In this document: positions 1 through 10,018 of the stretch, in pieces
Layout: the number at the start of each line of letters is the position of its first letter
How positions within the stretch are numbered: position 1 is the first letter of the stretch
Source of the DNA: Hyalangium ruber
Lineage (GTDB): Bacteria > Myxococcota > Myxococcia > Myxococcales > Myxococcaceae
Length of the DNA: 64,000 bases
Assembly: GCF_034259325.1 (NCBI RefSeq)
Contig: NZ_JAXIVS010000023.1
Coordinates: 1-64,000 of the forward strand
Reading direction: 5' to 3'
Translations under genes and position numbers: made by a program
Notes under the pieces: generated by a model
The model's input: only the letters and a program-made list of their open reading frames with translations
Told to the model about the DNA's origin: nothing
The model's database searches: none

Positions 1-895
1 CATCCACCAGGACGACGCCCTCGTAGTCGCCCAGCACCGTGCGCGCCGTCGCCCCGGAGCGGCTGGGGTAGATGCGATGGAAGACGGTGTCGGGCGAGGC
101 CACCGTCCACGCGTACCACTTGGTGCCCGGGCCCTTGTCCAGCAGGTACCAGTGCGTCTCGTCCGCGTGGATGAGGGGCGAGGTGAAGACCTCGGCCAGC
201 AGCGCCTCGTAGGACTTCTGCAGGTGCCGGGCGAGCGCCTCGAGCTGGTCCCACAGCGTCTGCGCCTCCACTACCAGGCCCTCGCGCCCGTAGAGCCTCT
301 CCTGACGAGCCAGCGGCAGGTGGAAGCCGTACTTCATGAGGGCCACGTGGACGGCGAAGTCTACCGAGTAGCGGCCGCCCGGAATCAGGCGCGGGGGGGC
401 CGGTGCCGTCACGGGTGCGCAGCCCTGGCCGCAGCGGTACTTCTGCCGCTTCACCCGCCGCAGCAGGAAGCTTCTCTCGACGACAGTGATTTCCTCGCAG
501 TCCTCGCTCTGGCCTTCCCAGGCATGCAGGCCGCCGCCACACAGGCCGCACACCCGGTCTGCCTCCTCCAGCGGCAGCAGCACCTCTTGCACCTTCAGCT
601 CGGGCTGAGCCTTGGGGCCGTGGCCTCGCTGCGGCTTGGCACGCGGAGGCTTCGGCGGCCTGGCCCCCCGCTTCTCGCTGGAGGCGCCGAAGAGCCGCTG
701 CTGCATGAGCGCCAGCTGCTCCTTGAGCTGCGTCAGCTCCAGCTGCAGGTGTGCCTGGGCGTCCTCGCCCTTGAGCCGGGCCACTTCCGCGACGAGCGCC
801 TCGAGGCGCTGGTGCAGCCGGGCATTCTCCGCCTCCAGCAGCGCCGCCACCTGCTTGGCCGTCTCCAAGTCTCGCAGCTGCTCCACTCGCACCAT
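1..895 (-). CDS. tnpC: IS66 family transposase TnpC (C-terminus outside window)
   Basis: This is the DDE transposase of the IS66 element. The visible 298 codons begin with a leucine-zipper-like coiled coil (about residues 5-75). A basic linker and a zinc-finger-like region with CGLCGGG and a later RCGQGC follow, and then the start of the catalytic core. The first catalytic aspartate is in IHADETHW, and the frame ends at GVVLVD, where the second aspartate motif begins; the final glutamate is off the edge. The ATG at 895 lies 16 bases after the tnpB stop, so the genes are probably co-transcribed. No frameshift or stop is seen in the visible part. Confidence 0.93.
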   Translation of the reverse strand, partial: MVRVEQLRDLETAKQVAALLEAENARLHQRLEALVAEVARLKGEDAQAHLQLELTQLKEQLALMQQRLFGASSEKRGARPPKPPRAKPQRGHGPKAQPELKVQEVLLPLEEADRVCGLCGGGLHAWEGQSEDCEEITVVERSFLLRRVKRQKYRCGQGCAPVTAPAPPRLIPGGRYSVDFAVHVALMKYGFHLPLARQERLYGREGLVVEAQTLWDQLEALARHLQKSYEALLAEVFTSPLIHADETHWYLLDKGPGTKWYAWTVASPDTVFHRIYPSRSGATARTVLGDYEGVVLVD

Positions 896-911
896 GACTA
901 CCTGACAGGTG

Positions 912-1292
912 CTACAAGCCACTGCCTACCGCAAGGACTTTCTCGTCCACCGCCGGAGGCGACAGCTTCCACCGCCCCGCCAGCTCGCAGCCTTCCAGGA
1001 AGAGCGACAGCTCGCTCACCGTCAGCTCCACTGCCTGCGCCCCCTCGTCGCACCAGGGCCGGGCGAAGCGTCCCCGGAAGAGTCTCTTGGTGAGCAGCAC
1101 CAGGCCTGTGCCGTCGAAGTGCAGCACCTTGGCCCGACGCCGGCACCGGCCCACGAAAAGGAACACGTCGCCCTTGAGCAACTGCCTTTCCAACTGCTGC
1201 TCAATGAGGGCGCTCAATCCATCGAAGCCCTTGCGCATGTCCACCGGGGCTGCGTACGCGAAGACGCGTACCGAACGCGTGAGCGTCAGCAC
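912..1292 (-). CDS. tnpB: IS66 family accessory protein TnpB
   Basis: TnpB (126 aa, usual length) is required for transposition of IS66 elements, though its biochemical role is unclear. The family signature is plain near the N-terminus: SVRVFAYAAPVDMRKGFDGL, followed by GDVFLFVGRCRRRAKVLHFDG and the C-terminal FARPW. I chose the GTG at 1292 because it gives the usual start just before the LTLTRSVRVF stretch. It also overlaps the tnpA stop in the string GTGCTGA, as expected for translational coupling. A longer open frame reaches 1493 but has no family resemblance upstream of this point. Confidence 0.92.
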   Translation of the reverse strand: MLTLTRSVRVFAYAAPVDMRKGFDGLSALIEQQLERQLLKGDVFLFVGRCRRRAKVLHFDGTGLVLLTKRLFRGRFARPWCDEGAQAVELTVSELSLFLEGCELAGRWKLSPPAVDEKVLAVGSGL

Positions 1293-1690
1293 CCCAGCTT
1301 CCCCAACAGCTGCACGGCGGCCTCCTCGCTGAGGCCCTCGACTCGCCAGCCTCCCGGTGACACCAGCGCCACCTGCTGCACTCCGGCCACCTCGGCTCGG
1401 GCGGGGCGCTCGCCCACGCGCACCGGCACCAGCGCCGCCCTCTTCTCCGCGGGCTTTGCACGGCGATGTCCCGCGGGACGGCCCTTGCGCCACTCGTAGA
1501 GCGTCGGCCCGGACACCCCCAGCTTCTGCGCCGCGTCCGTCACCGTCCCTCCCGCCGCCACGGTGTGCTCGGCGTAGCGCACCGCGAAGACGCGCAGCGC
1601 CTCAGGGAACGGCAACGAGCCACTGCGCCGCCCAGCCTTCAGCCGCTGCGCCTCCTGACGGAACTGCTCCAATTCCTTCTCCAACTCCAC
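1286..1690 (-). CDS. tnpA: IS66 family DNA-binding protein TnpA
   Basis: A 134-aa TnpA of the IS66 cassette. The central helix-turn-helix is visible at about residues 49-70 (GGTVTDAAQKLGVSGPTLYE followed by WRKG), the usual Tn3/IS66 orphan transposase fold. A basic linker and a C-terminal domain ending AAVQLLGKLGC follow. The start is a GTG at 1690, supported by an AGGAGG ribosome-binding site 7 bases upstream on the minus strand. It is the first gene of the element, reading inwards from the end near 1769, and overlaps tnpB by 7 bases. Confidence 0.9.
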   Translation of the reverse strand: MELEKELEQFRQEAQRLKAGRRSGSLPFPEALRVFAVRYAEHTVAAGGTVTDAAQKLGVSGPTLYEWRKGRPAGHRRAKPAEKRAALVPVRVGERPARAEVAGVQQVALVSPGGWRVEGLSEEAAVQLLGKLGC

Positions 1691-1841: not shown

Positions 1842-2520
1842 GCCTCCAGAAAACCCTTGGCCAAGAAAGCGGCTGTGCAGTTATTTCTCCGCCCGAAGCG
1901 CCCACTGCAAAGAGGTTCAGGAGACACCCCACCGGTTCTTGTGCGACAGTCCACGCCCTTGCTCGTCGGTCATATCCTCGCCGCCGCCCAGCCGAGCGCA
2001 GAGTCCATCCTCTTCTGTGTGGTCGCTGGCGTTGTGCTGATCGCCCTCACCATCGCCTGGGCGGTACGTGTGGCGCTGCGCGCCCCAAGGAAGCCTCTAA
2101 CCACTGCGGCAACCGACGCCGGAGGAGCAGGCGAAGACGTGTGTGGGGAGAATCCCTCCAGGCAGGCACGCCAGGGCTGTTTTTGGGGGACGGGAGGTCC
2201 ACCTCTGTCCAGCGTAGCCGCTGCTGCCATGCGTAACAGGGCCTCCATCTCTCCTATACTTATACTTTGATCCCTCCGGAGCACTGGGTTCCGGGTCGCA
2301 TGAACGCCCCTCCACCGGCCCAGAGTTCCCCCCGTGGGGCACCCGTCAGCGTCCCTTGTCGCCCCCCTCTCCAGCCCACACCTCATTAGGCCTTCCATTA
2401 GCCCTATGCGTTCCAACAAGTTCCTACCCTTGAGGACGTCATGGCATCTCATCCCATCTATGCTCTACCCCCCCCAGGTTGAGTATAGTGCAAGGAGCAG
2501 GGCATCTTCGGGAGATCCTC
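1842..2520. other. Gene-poor accessory stretch between IS66 and the protease cassette
   Basis: About 680 bases without a convincing gene. The only frame with protein-like character is the weak membrane ORF listed at 1857-2270. The rest (2271-2520) is pyrimidine-rich and holds the leader of the next cassette; a TATAGT at 2484-2489 could be a -10 element but has no convincing -35 partner. No tRNA, terminator with a T-run or clear repeat was found. Confidence 0.4.
1857..2270 (+). CDS. Doubtful small membrane ORF
   Basis: A 137-codon open frame from a TTG start (a GTG at 1941 would give 109 aa). It contains one credible transmembrane segment, ILFCVVAGVVLIALTIAWAV, followed by a basic VRVALRAPRK stretch, which is the right order for an N-out/C-in anchor. 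Against it, no ribosome-binding site precedes either start and the C-terminal half is low-complexity. The family is not recognised. It may be a degraded gene in the IS66-flanking region or not a gene at all. Confidence 0.2.
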   Translation: MAKKAAVQLFLRPKRPLQRGSGDTPPVLVRQSTPLLVGHILAAAQPSAESILFCVVAGVVLIALTIAWAVRVALRAPRKPLTTAATDAGGAGEDVCGENPSRQARQGCFWGTGGPPLSSVAAAAMRNRASISPILIL

Positions 2521-3339
2521 ATGCGACGTCCTTACCACCTAGTGGCCTTGCTTCTGGCCGCCACCACAGCGTCAGGCGACCCTCCCGAACCCGATGGGCT
2601 CTGCGACCCCTCTCTCAAAGTCGACCCACGCAGCGAGTACGGCTACACACAGAGGGGCGACCGGTGCGAAGGTCTTTATATCCAATCTGTCTCAGGGGCC
2701 GGCTTGGCCTTGCTGTCGCTGACCACGAGCATCGCGGACTACAGCGATTCCGAGAATGAGTCCCTGTTCATTCAGTGGCCTCGACTCTCGGCTGAGAAGC
2801 TAAAGCTCGACGGGGAGCTTCACATCCGGGTGTCCCGGCTTCACAAAGGCCAGTACTACCGGATGGACACCCGGAGCCCCTTTGCTGCGTCCGAGTACAG
2901 TTGGAACGCAGAACTGGTCCGAGCCCTAGTACCCCCTCGGGATCTTGGAATTCTCGCGCACAGCCGAAGCCCGCTGATAAGCGAGGAGGATGTCTATGTC
3001 CCCACGCTCTTGGCTCATTCAAAGGCGGACATTGTTCCGATAGAGCGATACAGGCTCGGCTTCTTTCCAGGAACAATCTTGGCGGAGGTCCTAGTGACGA
3101 TCGCGCCCGTCGATGCCGTCGGCAAGATCGGCCCCCCCATCAAAGACATGGCGAAGCTCCCCTTTGCTCCCGTGCCGCCCTCTCTCCCACAGTTCCTGGA
3201 GCTTCCCACTGATTGGTTCTCCGAGACAGGGATCTACTGGGTTTGGATCTCCGCGAAGACCCGGGACAATAGCCCGCTCACGACCGACTTTTACCTCGTC
3301 CATGCGAAAGCCAAGCAAGCCCCCTCACAGAAAAGGTGA
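2521..3339 (+). CDS. Secreted protein of unknown function, first gene of a three-gene cassette
   Basis: A 272-aa protein of no family I recognise. The start is set at the ATG at 2521 because it gives a clean signal peptide (MRRPYHLVALLLAATTASG) and has GGGAG 6 bases upstream; the open frame extends 14 codons further up. The mature part begins with a cysteine-containing segment (GLCDPSLK, GDRCEGLY) and is then rich in beta-type sequence with alternating hydrophobics, suggesting a beta-sandwich. It ends in a basic tail (KAKQAPSQKR) that overlaps the next gene by 38 bases. The tight link to a membrane protein and a secreted protease suggests an envelope complex; that is inference. Confidence 0.75.
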   Translation: MRRPYHLVALLLAATTASGDPPEPDGLCDPSLKVDPRSEYGYTQRGDRCEGLYIQSVSGAGLALLSLTTSIADYSDSENESLFIQWPRLSAEKLKLDGELHIRVSRLHKGQYYRMDTRSPFAASEYSWNAELVRALVPPRDLGILAHSRSPLISEEDVYVPTLLAHSKADIVPIERYRLGFFPGTILAEVLVTIAPVDAVGKIGPPIKDMAKLPFAPVPPSLPQFLELPTDWFSETGIYWVWISAKTRDNSPLTTDFYLVHAKAKQAPSQKR

Positions 3340-4588
3340 AGCCGCCAATCCTCCCACGGCTACGCCTGGAGCGCTAGGCATCGTACAGGTGCCAGCGCCC
3401 AGTCTGCCCGAGGCGCCTGCAGCACTAGATCCGATGCATCTCGTGTCTACTGCAGTGCCGCACGTTGCCGTAGAGGAGTGGGAGCAGAAGTTGAAAGCTG
3501 AGGCGCACGCCCTCATCCAACAGGAACTCACCCAGGAACCTGGAGTCAGCAAGCCCCGGACTCTGTCTGAGTTGCAGCTGCTCCTCGATGTGGCAGAACG
3601 GATTGCTCCCAATCGCAAGAAGTTCATCTATCATCCCATGGTCCTCCTCGTCGTCGTGGCAGTGCTCGTATTAGTGGGGATGACCTGCATTCGGATACAA
3701 ACCACCGAGATCGAGCTATCTGCCACAATGTCAGGCTTCGACGCGACCCTTGGCAGGAAGTATCAACTGCTCAGGAACAACATTGAGGCTGCCTCTCTGA
3801 CCGTGACAGGCGCCAGCAAGCTTCGACTTCCTGACGATGCAGGCCGTCCTTTGTCCCTCAAGCCTCAGGGAGAGTCAGGCTTGACGCTGATGGTGAACCC
3901 TGAACCTGAGGCCACCATGCCATCGACGACCATCAAGTTGCGCCCCTTCTTCCTACCTGCTAATGCGCGATTTGGACTCAGCGTCGCCTCCGCTCGCGAC
4001 TTAGCCATCGACATCAAGCATCCCGAGGTGCTGCTGCAAGCGGACTTTGTCGGCCCAGTTCGCTTGGATGCGCTTGGCTTCGACTCCCGCTCTGTTCTTC
4101 TGAACGCTGCTGCAGGCCTCTCAGCCTGGAGCGGAGACGATTCACGCATTGACATCCAGGCTGCCCAGACACTGGACTGCATCATGTGTCTCCCCGTTCC
4201 GATCTCTCATCTCGCGTTCGACTCGACCGACGAGGGCTTTGATGGGAAAGAACGGATCGTGACGCCGTTCTCGCGGATCATCTCAGGAACGTTGGTGCTC
4301 AGAGACCTGGGGAACAAGGAGGTTCCTTTGCGCTTGGGGACGCCCGTCGTCTTGGGAATCCAGGACGGGGAACTGGGCCCTGCCTCCATCGATAGCGAGG
4401 GCAGGATCTCGATCGTCTTTCACGGCAACATTGATCGCCTGAAGATCGGTTCGGGCAACAATACTAAGAATCTCATGCCTAGCTATCTTGAGTGGGTCGC
4501 CGCCAATCAGAAGCTGGCGCTGATCTGGGGAGCCCTGGCATTCATCGTCGCGCTGACCATCTCTGTGTGGAACTGGTTCCGAGGGTAG
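3302..4588 (+). CDS. Two-helix inner-membrane protein with large extracytoplasmic domain
   Basis: A 428-aa protein of no known family. The ATG at 3302 lies inside the preceding gene (38-base overlap); the open frame continues upstream, but that part reads as a shadow of the first gene. Predicted layout: a cytoplasmic N-terminal region of about 110 residues with an acidic, helical segment, a first membrane helix at about 111-132 (MVLLVVVAVLVLVGMTC), an extracytoplasmic domain of about 270 residues rich in beta sequence with one CIMC motif, a second helix at about 404-426 (LALIWGALAFIVALTISVW), and a very short tail. Two bases separate it from the protease gene. Confidence 0.75.
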   Translation: MRKPSKPPHRKGEAANPPTATPGALGIVQVPAPSLPEAPAALDPMHLVSTAVPHVAVEEWEQKLKAEAHALIQQELTQEPGVSKPRTLSELQLLLDVAERIAPNRKKFIYHPMVLLVVVAVLVLVGMTCIRIQTTEIELSATMSGFDATLGRKYQLLRNNIEAASLTVTGASKLRLPDDAGRPLSLKPQGESGLTLMVNPEPEATMPSTTIKLRPFFLPANARFGLSVASARDLAIDIKHPEVLLQADFVGPVRLDALGFDSRSVLLNAAAGLSAWSGDDSRIDIQAAQTLDCIMCLPVPISHLAFDSTDEGFDGKERIVTPFSRIISGTLVLRDLGNKEVPLRLGTPVVLGIQDGELGPASIDSEGRISIVFHGNIDRLKIGSGNNTKNLMPSYLEWVAANQKLALIWGALAFIVALTISVWNWFRG

Positions 4589-4590
4589 TC

Positions 4591-6072
4591 ATGAGAGCGG
4601 CTTCATTCACTGCCTTCGCGCTCGCGCTCCTTCTCGGAGGCCCCAAGGTGGCTCATGCACAGCCGAGCCCCTCGAACGCTACCCAGATCAGGACTCAAGA
4701 TGAGTCCATGCGCATGGTCGTCATGATCAACGGCGCATCGAGGGGGAAGGTGCAGTTCGGCGCAGGGCTGATCATCGGAAACGTGGGCAAGGTGGTCTAC
4801 GTCCTGACGGCCAATCATGTCCTTCGCAACGACCGCGGGAAGATGTTCGATAAGCTCAAGGTCCGGCTCTGGGCGCCCTGGAGCAAGCCTCAGTGGGTGG
4901 AGGCCGGGAGTCTCAAACCTCTCGCCTATGATAAGGAACTCGATCTCAGCGTCGCGGTGTTCGAACTCCCTGAGTCTCTTGGAAACTATCTGAGCCAGGT
5001 TTCTCTTCGCTGCCTGACGGACTCCGGGAATTTTTCCGAGAGGATGCCCGTCTCTTTTATTGGGCAAGGGGGCGGAATTCCCTGGTTCAGCTCCACGAGC
5101 GGCAACGCGCTTGTCAGGCCATCCTCCTCAGGCGAGAGGATCTTGTTCGAATCCAGCAATGTCGAGCCCGGCGCCTCAGGAGGAGGGCTGTTCACCCCGC
5201 AGTGGGAACTGATGGGTTTGGTTCAGGCGGTTTCTCCCAAGGAGGGCCAGGCTTTCCCTATCGACAAGGCGCTCGAGTGGGCAGCGGCACGTGGGTACCC
5301 TGTCTCCCTGAGGCGGCATGTTGCCATCTATGACTTCTCAGCGGACCCAGCATTTATCCCTGCTGATAGCACCACCACGCTCTCCTGGAAGGCCTCGTAC
5401 GGAACAGCCTGCAGAATCGAGCCCAGAGTCGGAGTGGTCCCTGCCGTTGGCTCTGTGAAGATCGACTGGCTCACGGAGACCACCCGCTTCAGCCTTGTCT
5501 GCTCGTCCCCAAACGACCCTTTGCACATCGTTAAGGAGGTTCTGGTCGCGTTGCCCAGATCCCCACGCATCATCTCGTTCGTGTCTCAGAATGAGTTCGA
5601 GGCATACGATGATTCTCCCTCCAGTGTCAAAGCGAAGCGGAAGGCTGACGGAAATGTCACCTTGACGTGGGAGACAGAGGACGCCAGGAGATGCACTCTT
5701 GACGGGGAAGATGTACCCACACAGGGCCTGCGAATCGTCAAGCCTGTCACCGCTCGGAGCTACACCCTGGTCTGTTACAATGAGGGACTAGTAGACATGC
5801 GCGCGACGGTAGCGGAAGCAATCAATCCCCCTGTGGCCATTCAGTATTTTGGCGCCAAACCTGTGGAGGATAACGGCAGTAAGTTCTTGAACCTTTACTG
5901 GAACGTGGTCAACGGCACGGAATGCCGTCTGGTCGGAGGGGACCTCAATCGTGATGTCAGACCGAGAGACACGCTGAATGTCGCTCCTCCCAGGAGTTCC
6001 ACGATCTATTACTTGAGATGTCAAGGTATTGGCGGTCCCGTCAGCCAATACATAACAGTGGATGCTCAATAA
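4591..6072 (+). CDS. Secreted trypsin-like serine protease with C-terminal Ig-like repeats
   Basis: A 493-aa exported protease of the chymotrypsin fold. A signal peptide is cleaved after AHA at about residue 23. The catalytic triad can be read directly: His76 in LTANHVL, Asp118 in ELDLSVAVF and Ser196 in EPGASGGGLF. Ala replaces the Asp normally before Gly-Ser, as in many bacterial S1/HtrA relatives. No PDZ domain follows. Instead there are three related Ig-like modules (about 265-345, 350-430 and 435-493), each with a C-R/T-[LI] turn after the middle strand and a closing YxLxC or FSLVC strand. The start at 4591 follows the previous stop by 2 bases and gives the signal peptide. The substrate is unknown. 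Confidence 0.85.
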   Translation: MRAASFTAFALALLLGGPKVAHAQPSPSNATQIRTQDESMRMVVMINGASRGKVQFGAGLIIGNVGKVVYVLTANHVLRNDRGKMFDKLKVRLWAPWSKPQWVEAGSLKPLAYDKELDLSVAVFELPESLGNYLSQVSLRCLTDSGNFSERMPVSFIGQGGGIPWFSSTSGNALVRPSSSGERILFESSNVEPGASGGGLFTPQWELMGLVQAVSPKEGQAFPIDKALEWAAARGYPVSLRRHVAIYDFSADPAFIPADSTTTLSWKASYGTACRIEPRVGVVPAVGSVKIDWLTETTRFSLVCSSPNDPLHIVKEVLVALPRSPRIISFVSQNEFEAYDDSPSSVKAKRKADGNVTLTWETEDARRCTLDGEDVPTQGLRIVKPVTARSYTLVCYNEGLVDMRATVAEAINPPVAIQYFGAKPVEDNGSKFLNLYWNVVNGTECRLVGGDLNRDVRPRDTLNVAPPRSSTIYYLRCQGIGGPVSQYITVDAQ

Positions 6073-6415: not shown

Positions 6416-7186
6416 ATGACAGCGACACGAGACTGTCTCGGGATCAGGGTCTTCGCGCCTGCGCTCTTAGGAAACGACGGCCGTGCGCTCGCTATCGTCC
6501 ATGGAATGGAACGGGCGTTCCCCGGCTTGCACCTGGGATGGAAGGTGTCCGAGGAGGGACGTCCCGTCGCGCTGCCTCGACGCGACGCATGGATCTCGGA
6601 AGTGACACCCGACGGAGGATTCCGCCTCGTATGCAACGGTGACGAGAGCTACCCCGTAACGATTAGCGCGTGGGAAAGACGCGCGGGGCCCGAGCCGCAT
6701 GCGCAGCCCCTGCTTCAAGTCAGCGCGGAGCTACCGCTGGACGCGGCGACCATCGCAGTGGCGGTGGATATGCTGGAGGAAGTGGCGGAGGGTGCCCGAG
6801 CGCTGTGGGGCCATGCAACGCCAGACCGTGCGGTGGGGGAGATCGCGCAGCAGTCGATCCGTCCATTACAGGGCCCGCCCCGCCCGCCACGAGGGCTGCC
6901 AGTGCTCGCGCTCTCAGAGCGACTCCGTGCGCCCGAGATTCCGCATTGCCTTGGGTGGCTGAACTACTGGTCCGCCGCCACCGCACGGTGGCTGAACTTT
7001 CCAGATCCTGCGCGCGACGCGGAGTTGCTCTCACGTTCTCGGCGCACCGCCACGGGAGGGTGGCTCGTCCGACTCACGGACGAGCCCCTCGACCTCGACA
7101 CCCCTGTCCACCTGGACGCCCTCCTGCGCGCATACGAACGCTTTCCAGAGATTGGCGGCCGAGGCACAGGAGCCTCCGGCGTATGA
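6416..7186 (+). CDS. DUF5953-like protein, possible orphan immunity protein
   Basis: A 256-aa soluble protein without signal peptide or membrane segment. From memory it resembles the myxobacterial family annotated as DUF5953: it opens LGIRVFAPALLGNDGRALAI with a VHGMERAFPGL helix, and later has HCLGWLNYWSAATARWLNF, then DAELLSRSRRT and a closing HLDALLRAYERFPEIGG. Such proteins are multi-copy in myxobacteria; a role as immunity to polymorphic toxins is my inference, from size, solubility and patchy accessory context. No toxin gene lies next to it. The ATG at 6416 has only a weak GAG upstream, so the start is not certain. Confidence 0.7.
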   Translation: MTATRDCLGIRVFAPALLGNDGRALAIVHGMERAFPGLHLGWKVSEEGRPVALPRRDAWISEVTPDGGFRLVCNGDESYPVTISAWERRAGPEPHAQPLLQVSAELPLDAATIAVAVDMLEEVAEGARALWGHATPDRAVGEIAQQSIRPLQGPPRPPRGLPVLALSERLRAPEIPHCLGWLNYWSAATARWLNFPDPARDAELLSRSRRTATGGWLVRLTDEPLDLDTPVHLDALLRAYERFPEIGGRGTGASGV

Positions 7187-7221
7187 CCGAACTCGAATCC
7201 TTCCGTCTGGGCGTGGCCGTC

Positions 7222-7944
7222 CTACGGCCGCTCGGGCACTTCGCAGCCGTCAGGCCCGCAGATGCCGGCGTCCGACTGGCCGGCGACGGAGACGAGCTTC
7301 TGCGGGTTCTTCTCACGCCACGCGGTCTCGAGCGCCTCCAGCAGCACCTCGACCGGCTGCGCGCCTGACACGCCGTACTTGCGGTCGATGACGACGAACG
7401 GCACCCCACCCGACCCCAACGAGCGGGCTTCGCGCCCGTCAGCGATCACCTTGCCGGCATAGCGCCTCGAGGTCATCGCCTCGCGCGCCGCCGTGGCGTC
7501 CAGGCCCAGCTGCGTCGCGAGCGGTGCGAGCGAGTCCACGTCGAAGATGGAGCGCGCCTCGGCGAAGTAGGTCTTGTAGAGCAGGCGCCACACCTCCTTG
7601 CCCTTACCGAGCTCCGTGGCCCAGGCGGCGAACTCATGGGCCAGCGAGGTGTTGCCGACGCGATTCTTCAGGACATTGTAAGGCGTCAGGCCGTCGGCCT
7701 GGGCCATCTGCTCGATGCGCCGGGTCATATCGACGACCTGCGTGTCCGACAGCCCCAGCTTGCTCTTCAACATGTCTCGCACCCGCTCCGTGACGCCGAC
7801 GCGGGCGCTCTCGTCGAGCTGGAACGAGCGGTGGACGAGCTCCACCTCCCCCTCGTGGCCGAAGCGGGCGAGTGCCTGCTCCAAGCGGTGATACCCCAGC
7901 CCGCACCAGGGGCAGACGATGTCAGTCCAGATTTCGACGCGCAT
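7222..7944 (-). CDS. DsbA-family oxidoreductase, FrnE-like
   Basis: A 240-aa thioredoxin-fold protein of the FrnE branch of DsbA. The redox motif is C11-P-W-C14, right after the first strand (VEIWTDIVCPWC), with a helical insertion (about 60-150) and the cis-proline loop GGVPFVVIDRKYGVSGAQP. The C-terminus carries an additional CGPDGC pair. There is no signal peptide, so it probably acts in the cytoplasm. The ATG at 7944 is preferred over an upstream TTG because GAGGAG stands just before it, inside the end of the kinase gene. It is the last gene of the efflux operon and may protect against thiol stress when the pump substrate is present; that is inference. Confidence 0.88.
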   Translation of the reverse strand: MRVEIWTDIVCPWCGLGYHRLEQALARFGHEGEVELVHRSFQLDESARVGVTERVRDMLKSKLGLSDTQVVDMTRRIEQMAQADGLTPYNVLKNRVGNTSLAHEFAAWATELGKGKEVWRLLYKTYFAEARSIFDVDSLAPLATQLGLDATAAREAMTSRRYAGKVIADGREARSLGSGGVPFVVIDRKYGVSGAQPVEVLLEALETAWREKNPQKLVSVAGQSDAGICGPDGCEVPERP

Positions 7945-7955
7945 GGACAATCTCC

Positions 7956-9335
7956 TCAAGGAGCCCGGGCTGCTGGGGCGTCCGCGAGGGTGAAGCCTAC
8001 CGTGTTGCCGCCCGCCGTGCTCGTCGCGAAGACGGTTCCGCCGTGCATCTTGGCAACCGCTCTCACGATCGACAGGCCCAGGCCGTGGTTGTCGCGGCTG
8101 TTCCGGCGCGCGCCGTCGACCCGGTAGAACCGATCGAACAGCCGCTCCAGGTGCTGCTCCGGAATCGGAGTTCCCGGGTTCGTGACGGCGATGCGCACCT
8201 TGGACTCCTGCTGTGCGATGGCCACGACGATCTCGGCGCCACGCTCGGAGTGCTCGATGGCGTTGAGGAGCAGGTTGCTGGCGGCCCGCCTGAACAGGGA
8301 GCGCTCGAACGGCGCGTGGGCATCACCCTCCACCCGCACCGAGACGCCCGCCTCATCGAGGAGCACCTCGAGGAACTCGACGGTCTTCGAGACCTCCTCC
8401 GCGGCAGACGTTTGGACCCGATGGAGCGCGGTCTCTCCCTGATCCGCGCGAGCGAGAAAGAGCATGTCGTTGACGATCGCCCGCAGGCGGTCGAGCTCCT
8501 CGAGGTTCGACTGGAGGGTCTCCTCGAGCTGCGGCGCGGTCCGCTCCTTCGCCAACGCGACCTGCGTCTGGCCGATGAGGTTCGCCAGCGGCGTGCGGAG
8601 CTCGTGCGCCACGTCGGCATTGAACCCCTCGAGCTGGGCGTATGCCCGCTGCACCCGGTCGAGCGCACCGTTGAACGAAGAGACCAGGTCGGCGAGTTCA
8701 GGCGGCAGGGGCGAGAGCCGCAGCCGCTGAGACAGGTCGCGCGGGCTGAGGGACTGGGCCTCCTGGGACAGGCTGCTCAGCGGCGCGAGCCCGACCTTGG
8801 CGATGCGGTGGCCGAGGAGCGCCACGAGCGCGACCCCGGCGAGGGAGAGCGCGACGAGCGCCCCAGCGAAGGCGTTCAGCGTGTCGAGGAAGCGCGTCGA
8901 ATCGACCGCCGTGACGACCTGGACCGCGGGACGTTCCCCATTCGAAGCAAAGGACCGCGAGGACGCCTTCATCGAGCGGCCCTCCAGGTCGATGACAAAG
9001 GGCCCGCCGGTGTGGGTGCTCAACCGCTCGCGGAGCATCGTCGGCGCATCGCCGTACTCGAAGCGCGGGTTGGGGCTCATGACCCAGAACCGCACGCTGC
9101 CGTCGAGCGGCGTGAGCGCATCGAGCTTCGAGCGCAGCGACTGCCACTTCTCGGCGCTGTCGTTCCGGGCGACCATCATGCCCACGTACTCGAGGCGGGT
9201 GTTCACCTCGCTGAGCTGGTGGCGATCGAGCTCCCGCTGAAGCACGTGCCGCAGGGCAAAGCCCACCAGCGAGAAGACCCCCAGTGCGGCCACCGCGAAC
9301 ATCACGGCCAGCCGGGTGGCGATCGCGGCCTTCAT
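7956..9335 (-). CDS. Heavy-metal-type sensor histidine kinase (CusS-like)
   Basis: A 459-aa membrane sensor kinase. It has an N-terminal helix (about 8-28), a periplasmic sensor region of about 130 residues and a second helix ([20 protein letters not shown]). HAMP, HisKA and HATPase domains follow. The phospho-acceptor is the His in [13 protein letters not shown]. The N box ([10 protein letters not shown]), the DRFYRVD segment and the G2 loop [10 protein letters not shown] are all present. The layout and the match to the CusS/CopS type suggest sensing of metals or another envelope stress. It overlaps the regulator gene by ATGA and sits in the efflux operon it presumably controls. Confidence 0.9.
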
Positions 9336-10018
9336 GGCGCCTCCTTGTCGCCGCGCACCTCGAGCACGTATCCCATGCCGCGGATGGTGTGGAGGAGCTT
9401 GCGCTCATGGGGCCCGTCGATCTTCGCCCTCAGGCGCTTGATGGCGACCTCGACGACGTTCGTGTTGCTGTCGAAGTTCATGTCCCAGACCTGCTCGGCG
9501 ATGACGGTCTTCGACAGGATCTGCCCTTCGCGCCGGGCGAGCAAGGCGAGCAGGGCAAACTCCTTCGCGGTCAGCTCGAGCCGGCTCCCAGCGCGGTACG
9601 CCTTCCGGCTGAGCAGGTCGATCTCCAGGTCCCCCACCCTGAGCTGGGTCGACTCCTGCGCGCGGCCGCGCCGGGTCACCGCCTGCAAGCGCGCGACGAG
9701 CTCGAGGAAGGAGAACGGCTTGACGAGGTAATCGTCCGCGCCCTCTCGGAGCCCATGGACCCGGTCATCGACCCGGTCGCGCGCGGTGAGCATGAGCACT
9801 GGCGTCTGCTTGTGCGTGCGAATAGCCCGGAGCACGGCGAAGCCGTCCATCTCCGGGAGCATCACGTCGAGGACGATCACGTCATAGTCGTGCTGCAGGG
9901 TCAGGGCGTGCCCCTCTGGCCCTGTCCGCGCCACGTCCACCGTGTACCCCTGCTCATGGAGGCCCCGGTGCAGATACTCGGCCGTCTTCGCCTCGTCCTC
10001 GACGATGAGGATCTTCAT
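9332..10018 (-). CDS. OmpR-family response regulator (CusR/CopR-like)
   Basis: A 228-aa two-domain regulator. The receiver domain has the acidic pair VEDE, the phospho-acceptor Asp51 in [11 protein letters not shown], the Thr in LTARD and Lys in VKPFSF. A winged-helix domain follows, containing LTAKEFALL, then VIAEQVWD, then [14 protein letters not shown] and the wing IRGMGYVLE. The sequence is closest in feel to heavy-metal regulators (CusR, CopR, IrlR). A matching binding site lies upstream of the first gene of the operon at 15751-15766, so autoregulation of the pump, the regulator and the kinase is likely. It overlaps the preceding lipoprotein gene by ATGA. Confidence 0.93.

Follow-up and report, generated by a model that had tools for sequence, protein, structure and literature searches.

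A candidate envelope sensor built from an exported trypsin-like protease, a membrane protein and a small exported partner in Hyalangium ruber and distant bacteria

Introduction

Conflict systems of bacteria that employ trypsin-like peptidases and TIR domains are, in the portions of the literature considered here, built round NTPases or adaptor domains, and some of their sensors are predicted to lie outside (PMC7159879, PMC8195603, PMC10907252). The sections of Kaur et al. 2020 (PMC7159879) on which we draw predict several such arrangements, namely a vWA-MoxR ternary system, a two-gene membrane system with EACC1 and a NucA-trypsin system, and the equivalent sections of Kaur et al. 2021 (PMC8195603), like those of Kaur et al. 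2020 and Dore et al. 2024, describe trypsin, TIR and FGE domains in contexts different from the present one. The part of Dore et al. 2024 (PMC10907252) considered here deals with antigen sensors diversified by diversity-generating retroelements, with modules of the FGE/C-lectin fold as proposed sensors; some of the sensors are predicted to be secreted or periplasmic. Pairs made of a trypsin-like protease and a nuclease are described in the portion used of a 2025 article (PMC12799240). In this study we analyze a three-gene set (A, B and C) located near the start of a 64,000-nucleotide stretch of Hyalangium ruber DNA (assembly GCF_034259325.1, contig NZ_JAXIVS010000023.1, positions 1 to 64,000 of the forward strand), hereafter called the window. 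Gene A encodes a small exported protein, gene B a membrane protein and gene C a trypsin-like protease. The original prediction, made from the nucleotide sequence, viewed the trio as an undescribed envelope cassette in which B anchors or activates the protease.

A distant parallel is found in animals: the insect Toll pathway involves a modular serine protease, Spatzle, and the Toll receptor with its TIR domain. Spatzle is the ligand of the Toll receptor, as stated in the part of PMC8509142 used here.

Results

The three genes travel together

Searches with A as the only query yielded 18 places whose neighbours were read, and both B and C were present at 17 of them. Because A alone led to these 17 loci, the linkage is not built into the sample. 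The loci belong to Myxococcota, an Acidobacteriaceae metagenome-assembled genome (MAG), Gemmatimonadota, the order of Variovorax, and Henriciella. Gene order is A-B-C in 16 loci, some of them with a second C gene, and B-C-A-C in the remaining one (L072). Recurrence of the trio in order, put forward as a test among myxobacteria, was found and extends beyond them.

Family membership was examined with leave-one-out profiles, using the other frames of the same loci as the control set. For each of the 17 loci, both left-out proteins took the top rank among 618 frames; the worst E was 3e-16 for A and, for B, 1.5e-8 (L072), followed by 9e-12 (L070). The best unrelated frame scored E 0.0027 or weaker. 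Across phyla, A and B proteins are mostly 20-40% identical.

Within the order, however, the trio is rare. When A was searched in 145 genomes of the order to which the window belongs, five genomes were retrieved: the window's own, G082, G098, G109 and, weakly, G054. In the first four, A is followed by a two-helix protein and then by one or two trypsin-like proteins. Every pairwise comparison among these four is significant for A (six pairs, worst E 5e-5) and for B (six pairs, worst E 7e-5). The G054 match (L036/L040), with E 0.003 and 29% of 97 residues identical, was regarded as probable chance: it lies on a 3.3-kb contig without B or C, which shows a helicase-like frame by eye. Against the same 145 genomes, window B alone retrieved only itself, and the trio came to light through the A and trypsin-domain searches. 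Window C matched 27 of the genomes, mostly via its Ig-like part; besides the window, its protease part matched only G098 and G082.

A scan of 84,980 genomes with a single strict motif of A detected six relatives, one of which is the G082 copy. The five new ones, all of them with the trio, are the Acidobacteriaceae MAG, two Gemmatimonadetes MAGs, Variovorax sp. WDL1 and the Henriciella MAG. In profile searches, A was found in 4 of 195 genomes of the window's phylum, 5 of 298 and 1 of 347 in the phyla that contain the Gemmatimonadetes and Acidobacteriaceae relatives, 4 of 300 in the order of Variovorax and 1 of 289 in the class of Henriciella. The overall figure of 15 in 1429 genomes, which comprises five known centre genomes, three already aligned (G082, G098 and G109) and seven new ones, indicates sporadic occurrence; since only part of the candidates was scored in many genomes, all these counts are lower bounds. 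A second copy was found in G858.

The genes that flank the trio, named by eye, vary from locus to locus; examples are carB and a desaturase in L037, recQ and a regulator in L047, a permease and a dipeptidase in L049, and glyQ/glyS in L078. A toxin-like frame in L038 was a guess by eye without a Pfam match, and was set aside.

A and B are orphan families

Neither window A nor window B matches a Pfam family up to E 10, and their profiles find no credible match by sequence in the PDB (best E 0.5 for A and 0.09 for B; P0003 gave none at 0.01). Hence, no well-known family of unrelated function was found for either. Isolated matches of one A relative (E 0.013) and one B relative (E 0.004), both below the Pfam cut-off, were discounted as weak. 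The claim that A is exported and lacks a known family is in agreement with these results: a crude rule detects a signal-like N-terminal stretch in 16 of 17 A proteins; the exception, L069, has an A frame of only 163 codons from which the N-terminal part is missing. A structure model depicts A as beta sandwiches (predicted local distance difference test, pLDDT, 76.2; predicted template-modelling score, pTM, 0.76). Comparison with the PDB by VIA gave a best Z of 8.6, with a root-mean-square deviation of 3.2 over 97 residues (9i25_C), followed by numerous FN3/Ig folds with Z between 7 and 8; CopC/PcoC chains reached template-modelling (TM) scores of 0.37-0.49 on the target. The modelled fold of A thus appears to lie near FN3/Ig and CopC-type folds, albeit not decisively.

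In B, the two predicted membrane stretches are confirmed by hydropathy and by an AlphaFold model. A simple hydropathy rule finds both in 13 of 16 B proteins, a count from which L078 was left out, and the first one only in L039, L047 and L049. The model of window B, computed with seven sequences, begins with two low-confidence cytoplasmic helices and continues with a membrane helix, a beta domain and another membrane helix; the domain between the membrane helices comprises about 250-270 residues. This model is weak (pLDDT 63.7, pTM 0.54), a limit that extends to the fold searches made with it: the six Foldseek rows at E 0.001 or below show probabilities of 0.14-0.21 and TM scores of 0.08-0.09 on the query, and the best Z by VIA is 3.7. 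The CIMC motif pointed out in B did not withstand alignment: it is not conserved, and a nearby C-L-I-C is present in L037 only, among nine aligned rows. Its interpretation as a metal or disulfide motif was dropped.

A TIR domain forms the start of B in two of the 17 loci (PF13676, E 1.5e-22 in L071 and 1.4e-25 in L072). These loci belong to two genomes of the Variovorax order, and their B proteins align over the full length (E 1e-43). Both contain the motif W-V-x-x-E, which we take to be the site where TIR NADases keep their glutamate. As the TIR domain precedes the first membrane helix, the N-terminus would be inside and the beta domain outside, so that B of these two loci would span the membrane with a signalling output inside. 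For B in general, the distribution of charges together with the TIR domain of the relatives suggests the same orientation. TIR domains are absent from B of L073 and L078, although they fall in the same clade as L071 and L072 (support 100/99). Pfam did not find TIR in B of the window, L045 (the G082 copy), L047, L049, L068, L069 or L070, and the B proteins of L037, L039, L046, L048, L050 and L067, outside the Pfam scan, show no TIR-like start by eye.

In L072, a WD40 protein (L072:1-2259) precedes the set and a DUF4062 protein (L072:8652-10997) follows it; both are possible further parts of a conflict locus. The hits of one plasmid search concerned solely the TIR part; among them, L074 (from Novosphingobium) was rejected, as it has no A, B or C by profile. 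In PHROGs, A and B of the window and L046 had no match, C matched weakly, and P0006 and P0007 matched through the TIR part only.

C is a trypsin-like protease with changing modules

The family of C proteins comprises 22 members, one of which (L070 C0) lies 2.2 kb before its A gene and may not belong. A stretch resembling an export signal is detected in 19 of the 22 by a crude rule, and is visible by eye in the other three (L048, L067 and L078 C2). Alignment with the relatives confirms the triad proposed for the window protein: H, D and S occupy the columns of H76, D118 and S196 in 17 of the 22 proteins. The exceptions are L038, whose Asp column holds a different residue, L071 C2 and the two L078 proteins, with G in that column, and L039 C1, which has none of the three residues. 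With this distribution, at least one standard triad is kept in 15 of the 17 loci. Trypsin_2 is the only curated family matched by window C, and NCBIfam gave nothing near its cut-offs on the trio.

Two loci have unusual C genes. The tandem C genes of L039 (L039:4692-7129), one with an intact triad and one devoid of it, are possibly a protease and pseudoprotease pair. In turn, the genome of L071 holds another, diverged version of the set at L078:3161-8570; the usual Asp is missing from its two trypsin proteins, and apparent helical repeats follow.

The domain attached to the protease differs among loci. Pfam recognizes RCC1 repeats beside the trypsin domain in L046, L049 and L067, HEAT repeats before it in L048, and FGE-sulfatase, of the FGE/C-lectin fold, in L072 (two proteins) and L073; BamE is matched in L069 and Sel1, just under the cut-off, in L071. 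The remaining loci have no recognized module on C. The proposal that window C has three Ig-like modules instead of PDZ domains stands in part: no PDZ domain is found up to E 10, and the module is homologous to that of L037 (E 6e-19), with Ig-like repeats by pattern in both proteins, but Pfam does not recognize the modules, whose assignment is based on pattern by eye and on that homology. Ig-like modules are, moreover, one option among several across loci. Many other myxobacterial frames, most of them 400-1400 codons long, contain relatives of the Ig-like part of window C, which is apparently a common building block of these genomes.

RCC1 repeats are fused to C in three loci and form a separate neighbouring protein in two. 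The RCC1 protein located after C in L047 is 35% identical to the fused module of L046 (E 8e-54). The separate proteins (L047:9544-11691 and, in L069:9915-14106, two in tandem with Big_1 matches below the Pfam cut-off) resemble lipoproteins by eye, and look like modules supplied in trans. Barrel-like ends are seen by eye in the C proteins of L038, L047, L068 and L069, and only those of L047 and L069 are mutually similar.

Layout and surroundings of the window copy

Coordinates are compiled in Table 1. The three frames were found where the original prediction placed them, with a 2-base gap between B and C and, if the first ATG of B is used, a 38-base overlap between A and B. An in-frame ATG at residue 45 of B would abolish the overlap and, judged by eye, fits the relatives better; the overlap is therefore uncertain.

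Table 1. Features of the A-B-C locus and its flanks in the window
Feature	Position	Strand	Remarks
Gene A	2521..3339	+	ATG 2521 to stop 3339; exported protein of 272 aa, orphan family
Conserved motif of A, YTQRGDRCEGLY	2644..2679	+	Residues 42-53; alignment of 9 members
Gene B	3302..4588	+	ATG 3302 to stop 4588; membrane protein of 428 aa, orphan family; start uncertain
First membrane helix of B	3629..3688	+	Model residues 110-129
Beta-rich domain of B between helices	3704..4447	+	Residues 135-382; taken as periplasmic
Second membrane helix of B	4514..4582	+	Model residues 405-427
Gene C	4591..6072	+	ATG 4591 to stop 6072; exported trypsin-like protease of 493 aa
Trypsin_2 domain of C with H76, D118, S196	4759..5220	+	Pfam, residues 57-210, E 2.1e-8
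Module region of C	5323..6069	+	Residues 245-493; three Ig-like repeats by pattern; homology to L037 module
DUF5953 gene, downstream	6416-7186		Pfam E 7e-114
TnpB_IS66, upstream	912-1493	minus	Pfam
HTH_Tnp_1 frame, among IS66 genes	1286-1690	minus	Pfam
Transposase-like frame, cut by window edge	2-925	minus	IS66 transposase-like by eye

The flanks, an IS66 element upstream and a DUF5953 gene downstream, are likewise as proposed. IS66 genes occupy positions 2-1690 (minus strand), and the window begins at the first base of the contig. Pfam analysis of the trio and four genes at 6416-10018 detected trypsin, DUF5953, DsbA, a histidine kinase and a response regulator. An IS66 element beside the G109 copy, guessed by eye, received no match in Pfam.

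The GC content of the trio is 58.4%, compared with 68.1% in the window. In a scan of 605 overlapping segments of trio size, only five had lower GC, and the eight segments poorest in GC begin at 2401-3101, on the trio itself. GC at third codon positions is 0.68-0.71 in the trio, 0.715 in the DUF5953 gene and 0.90-0.92 in the three genes that follow. Since the DUF5953 gene resembles the trio and differs from those genes, both may have been acquired as one foreign segment. No DUF5953 gene was noticed next to the trios of relatives, albeit no search aimed at it was made.

Discussion

A putative sensor in the cell envelope

The trio is shared by distant loci, with export signals predicted in A and C, two predicted membrane helices in B, and a module that varies while A, B and the trypsin domain stay. 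With a probability that we put at roughly 0.5, A-B-C would be a self-contained, horizontally moving envelope sensor for conflict or defence, a view with which the sporadic spread and the low GC of the window copy agree. A tentative sequence of events is as follows. The module on C, or on a partner protein, would recognize something beyond the inner membrane, be it a phage, a predator, a rival or a wall component. Recognition would engage C, which might cut either A or the outer domain of B. B would then change state and relay a signal inward across the membrane. In two loci the inward output would be the TIR domain of B, whose expected effect is to use up or convert NAD and thereby halt the cell. 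Window B has a helical cytoplasmic stretch only, and its output may consist of recruitment of another effector or be purely extracytoplasmic. The benefit would most likely be defence or conflict with other cells or viruses. The TIR-bearing relatives suggest that B relays a signal, rather than anchoring or activating the protease as first envisaged.

Several observations weigh against a sensor of this kind:

(i). TIR is found in only 2 of 17 loci, with six B proteins omitted from the Pfam scan, and no effector is recognized elsewhere.

(ii). Five of the 22 C proteins lack the standard triad at the aligned columns, and the two C proteins of L039 fall below the Pfam cut-off for trypsin. Similarity among C proteins is also weaker than among A or B proteins: in the first four loci, 5 of the 10 pairs formed by five C proteins have E 0.01 or worse.

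(iii). Some neighbours of the trio are housekeeping genes, and the queries tried with A or B (not C) found no copy of the set in 72,556 plasmids, 50,697 phages and viral contigs.

(iv). On the A+B tree, which covers 16 loci, the ten module labels require at least 10 changes, when nine are the minimum, and on the trypsin tree 11. Being only one above the minimum, the changes on the tree alone do not prove repeated exchange. The two Ig-bearing loci are not neighbours, though most branches are weakly supported; both trees have long branches, and 2 of 13 inner branches are strongly supported in each. The case for module exchange is made by the variety itself and by the occurrence of RCC1 in cis and in trans, and the tree adds little.

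Other explanations for the trio

One alternative is envelope quality control: C would be a housekeeping protease of the HtrA type acting in the periplasm or on the outer membrane, A an adaptor or inhibitor and B an anchor or stress relay, while the modules would do no more than recruit different substrates. The export signals and trypsin fold of C are consistent with such a role, as are the BamE match in L069, the barrel-like ends seen by eye in some C proteins, and the fact that most loci lack a recognized effector. Nonetheless, window C lacks PDZ domains, a set present in 15 of 1429 genomes is very sporadic for such a task, the modules differ between lineages, and B bears TIR in two loci. 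On balance, we find a quality control role unlikely.

Quite unlikely, too, is a protease-inhibitor conflict set with a toxin-and-immunity logic, in which C would be directed at rivals or prey, as an exported weapon or a protease of the cell surface, with A as its inhibitor and B as the anchor of the two. A is small, exported, a beta sandwich in the model, and placed beside C in 17 loci; the modules could bind targets, and the tandem C copy without triad in L039 is compatible with this scheme. However, B is as constant a partner as A, and the TIR domain on B in two loci is not needed for a weapon.

Cargo of a mobile element, kept together by recent spread with no shared function, agrees with the IS66 element that adjoins the window copy, the low GC and the sporadic spread, but is very improbable, because neighbourhood and open frames are kept at an identity of mostly 20-40% for A and B across phyla, which points to old linkage under selection, and because IS66 is unconfirmed beside other copies.

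Comparison with known systems

HtrA/DegP and the MXAN_2756 family share with window C an exported trypsin fold with an H-D-S triad. The resemblance stops there: C lacks the PDZ domains of HtrA/DegP and scores 11.1 bits with degP_htrA_DO of NCBIfam, compared with a cut-off of 416.2, and 11.9 bits with NF050173, whose cut-off is 200.

The systems of Kaur et al. 2020, as presented in the sections considered, are similar to a putative envelope sensor in that trypsin-like peptidases and TIR occur, variable domains are joined to a constant core, and the spread is sporadic. In contrast, the window trio has no recognized MoxR, vWA, caspase or nuclease, an export signal is present on its protease, and two orphan families make up the constant partners. 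For the vWA-MoxR or VMAP ternary system, Pfam detects neither MoxR nor vWA in the trio or in the genes at 6416-10018, and the upstream frames scanned are of the IS66 type. The EACC1 two-gene system does not match either, as B has two membrane stretches rather than one and the trio contains no caspase or cyclase; NucA-trypsin fails for lack of a nuclease domain in the trio by Pfam, and a TIR-effector system does not match the window copy, whose A, B and C have no TIR by Pfam. The window trio found no strong match in PADLOC-DB 2023 (best E 0.003), and the matches of ten proteins of relatives fall in trypsin, HEAT or TIR stretches. Among the NCBIfam and PADLOC results, the matches of P0005 to JetB (E 0.042) and of P0002 to HisB (E 0.012) were discounted as weak.

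FGE/C-lectin-fold modules and trypsin-like and TIR parts are shared with the sensors of Dore et al. 2024. In the portion of that study considered, the systems rest on STAND or MoxR NTPases, none of which is recognized in the trio proteins scanned, and in the present loci it is the protease that carries the FGE module. The trio also lacks the nuclease of the nuclease-protease pairs described in the part used of PMC12799240. By sequence comparison, therefore, the trio fits no described conflict system tested.

No paper describing the A-B-C combination was found in the open-licence literature of PubMed Central and, as MoxR, vWA and caspase parts were not found in the trio, we call the set categorically new as a system with a putative function, whose trypsin, TIR and module domains were already known. 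The view of the trio as an undescribed envelope cassette is thus supported within the libraries and open-licence papers covered. A and B are two orphan families ready for profile building, and the loci offer a natural experiment in which the core is constant while the module and the cytoplasmic part vary.

The insect Toll pathway provides an analogy, with no homology claimed: it also combines a modular exported serine protease, an exported partner and a membrane protein with a cytoplasmic TIR domain, a domain that here is found in only 2 of 17 loci. A doubtful speculation is that the trio performs a Toll-like surveillance, in which the protease would read the outside through exchangeable recognition modules, process A and thereby switch the receptor B, equipped with TIR or able to recruit it. 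If so, two new protein families would form part of an immune system that acts at the envelope, and the combination of a protease outside, an exported partner and, in some members, an inner TIR would suggest that bacteria watch their envelope by means of a protease relay.

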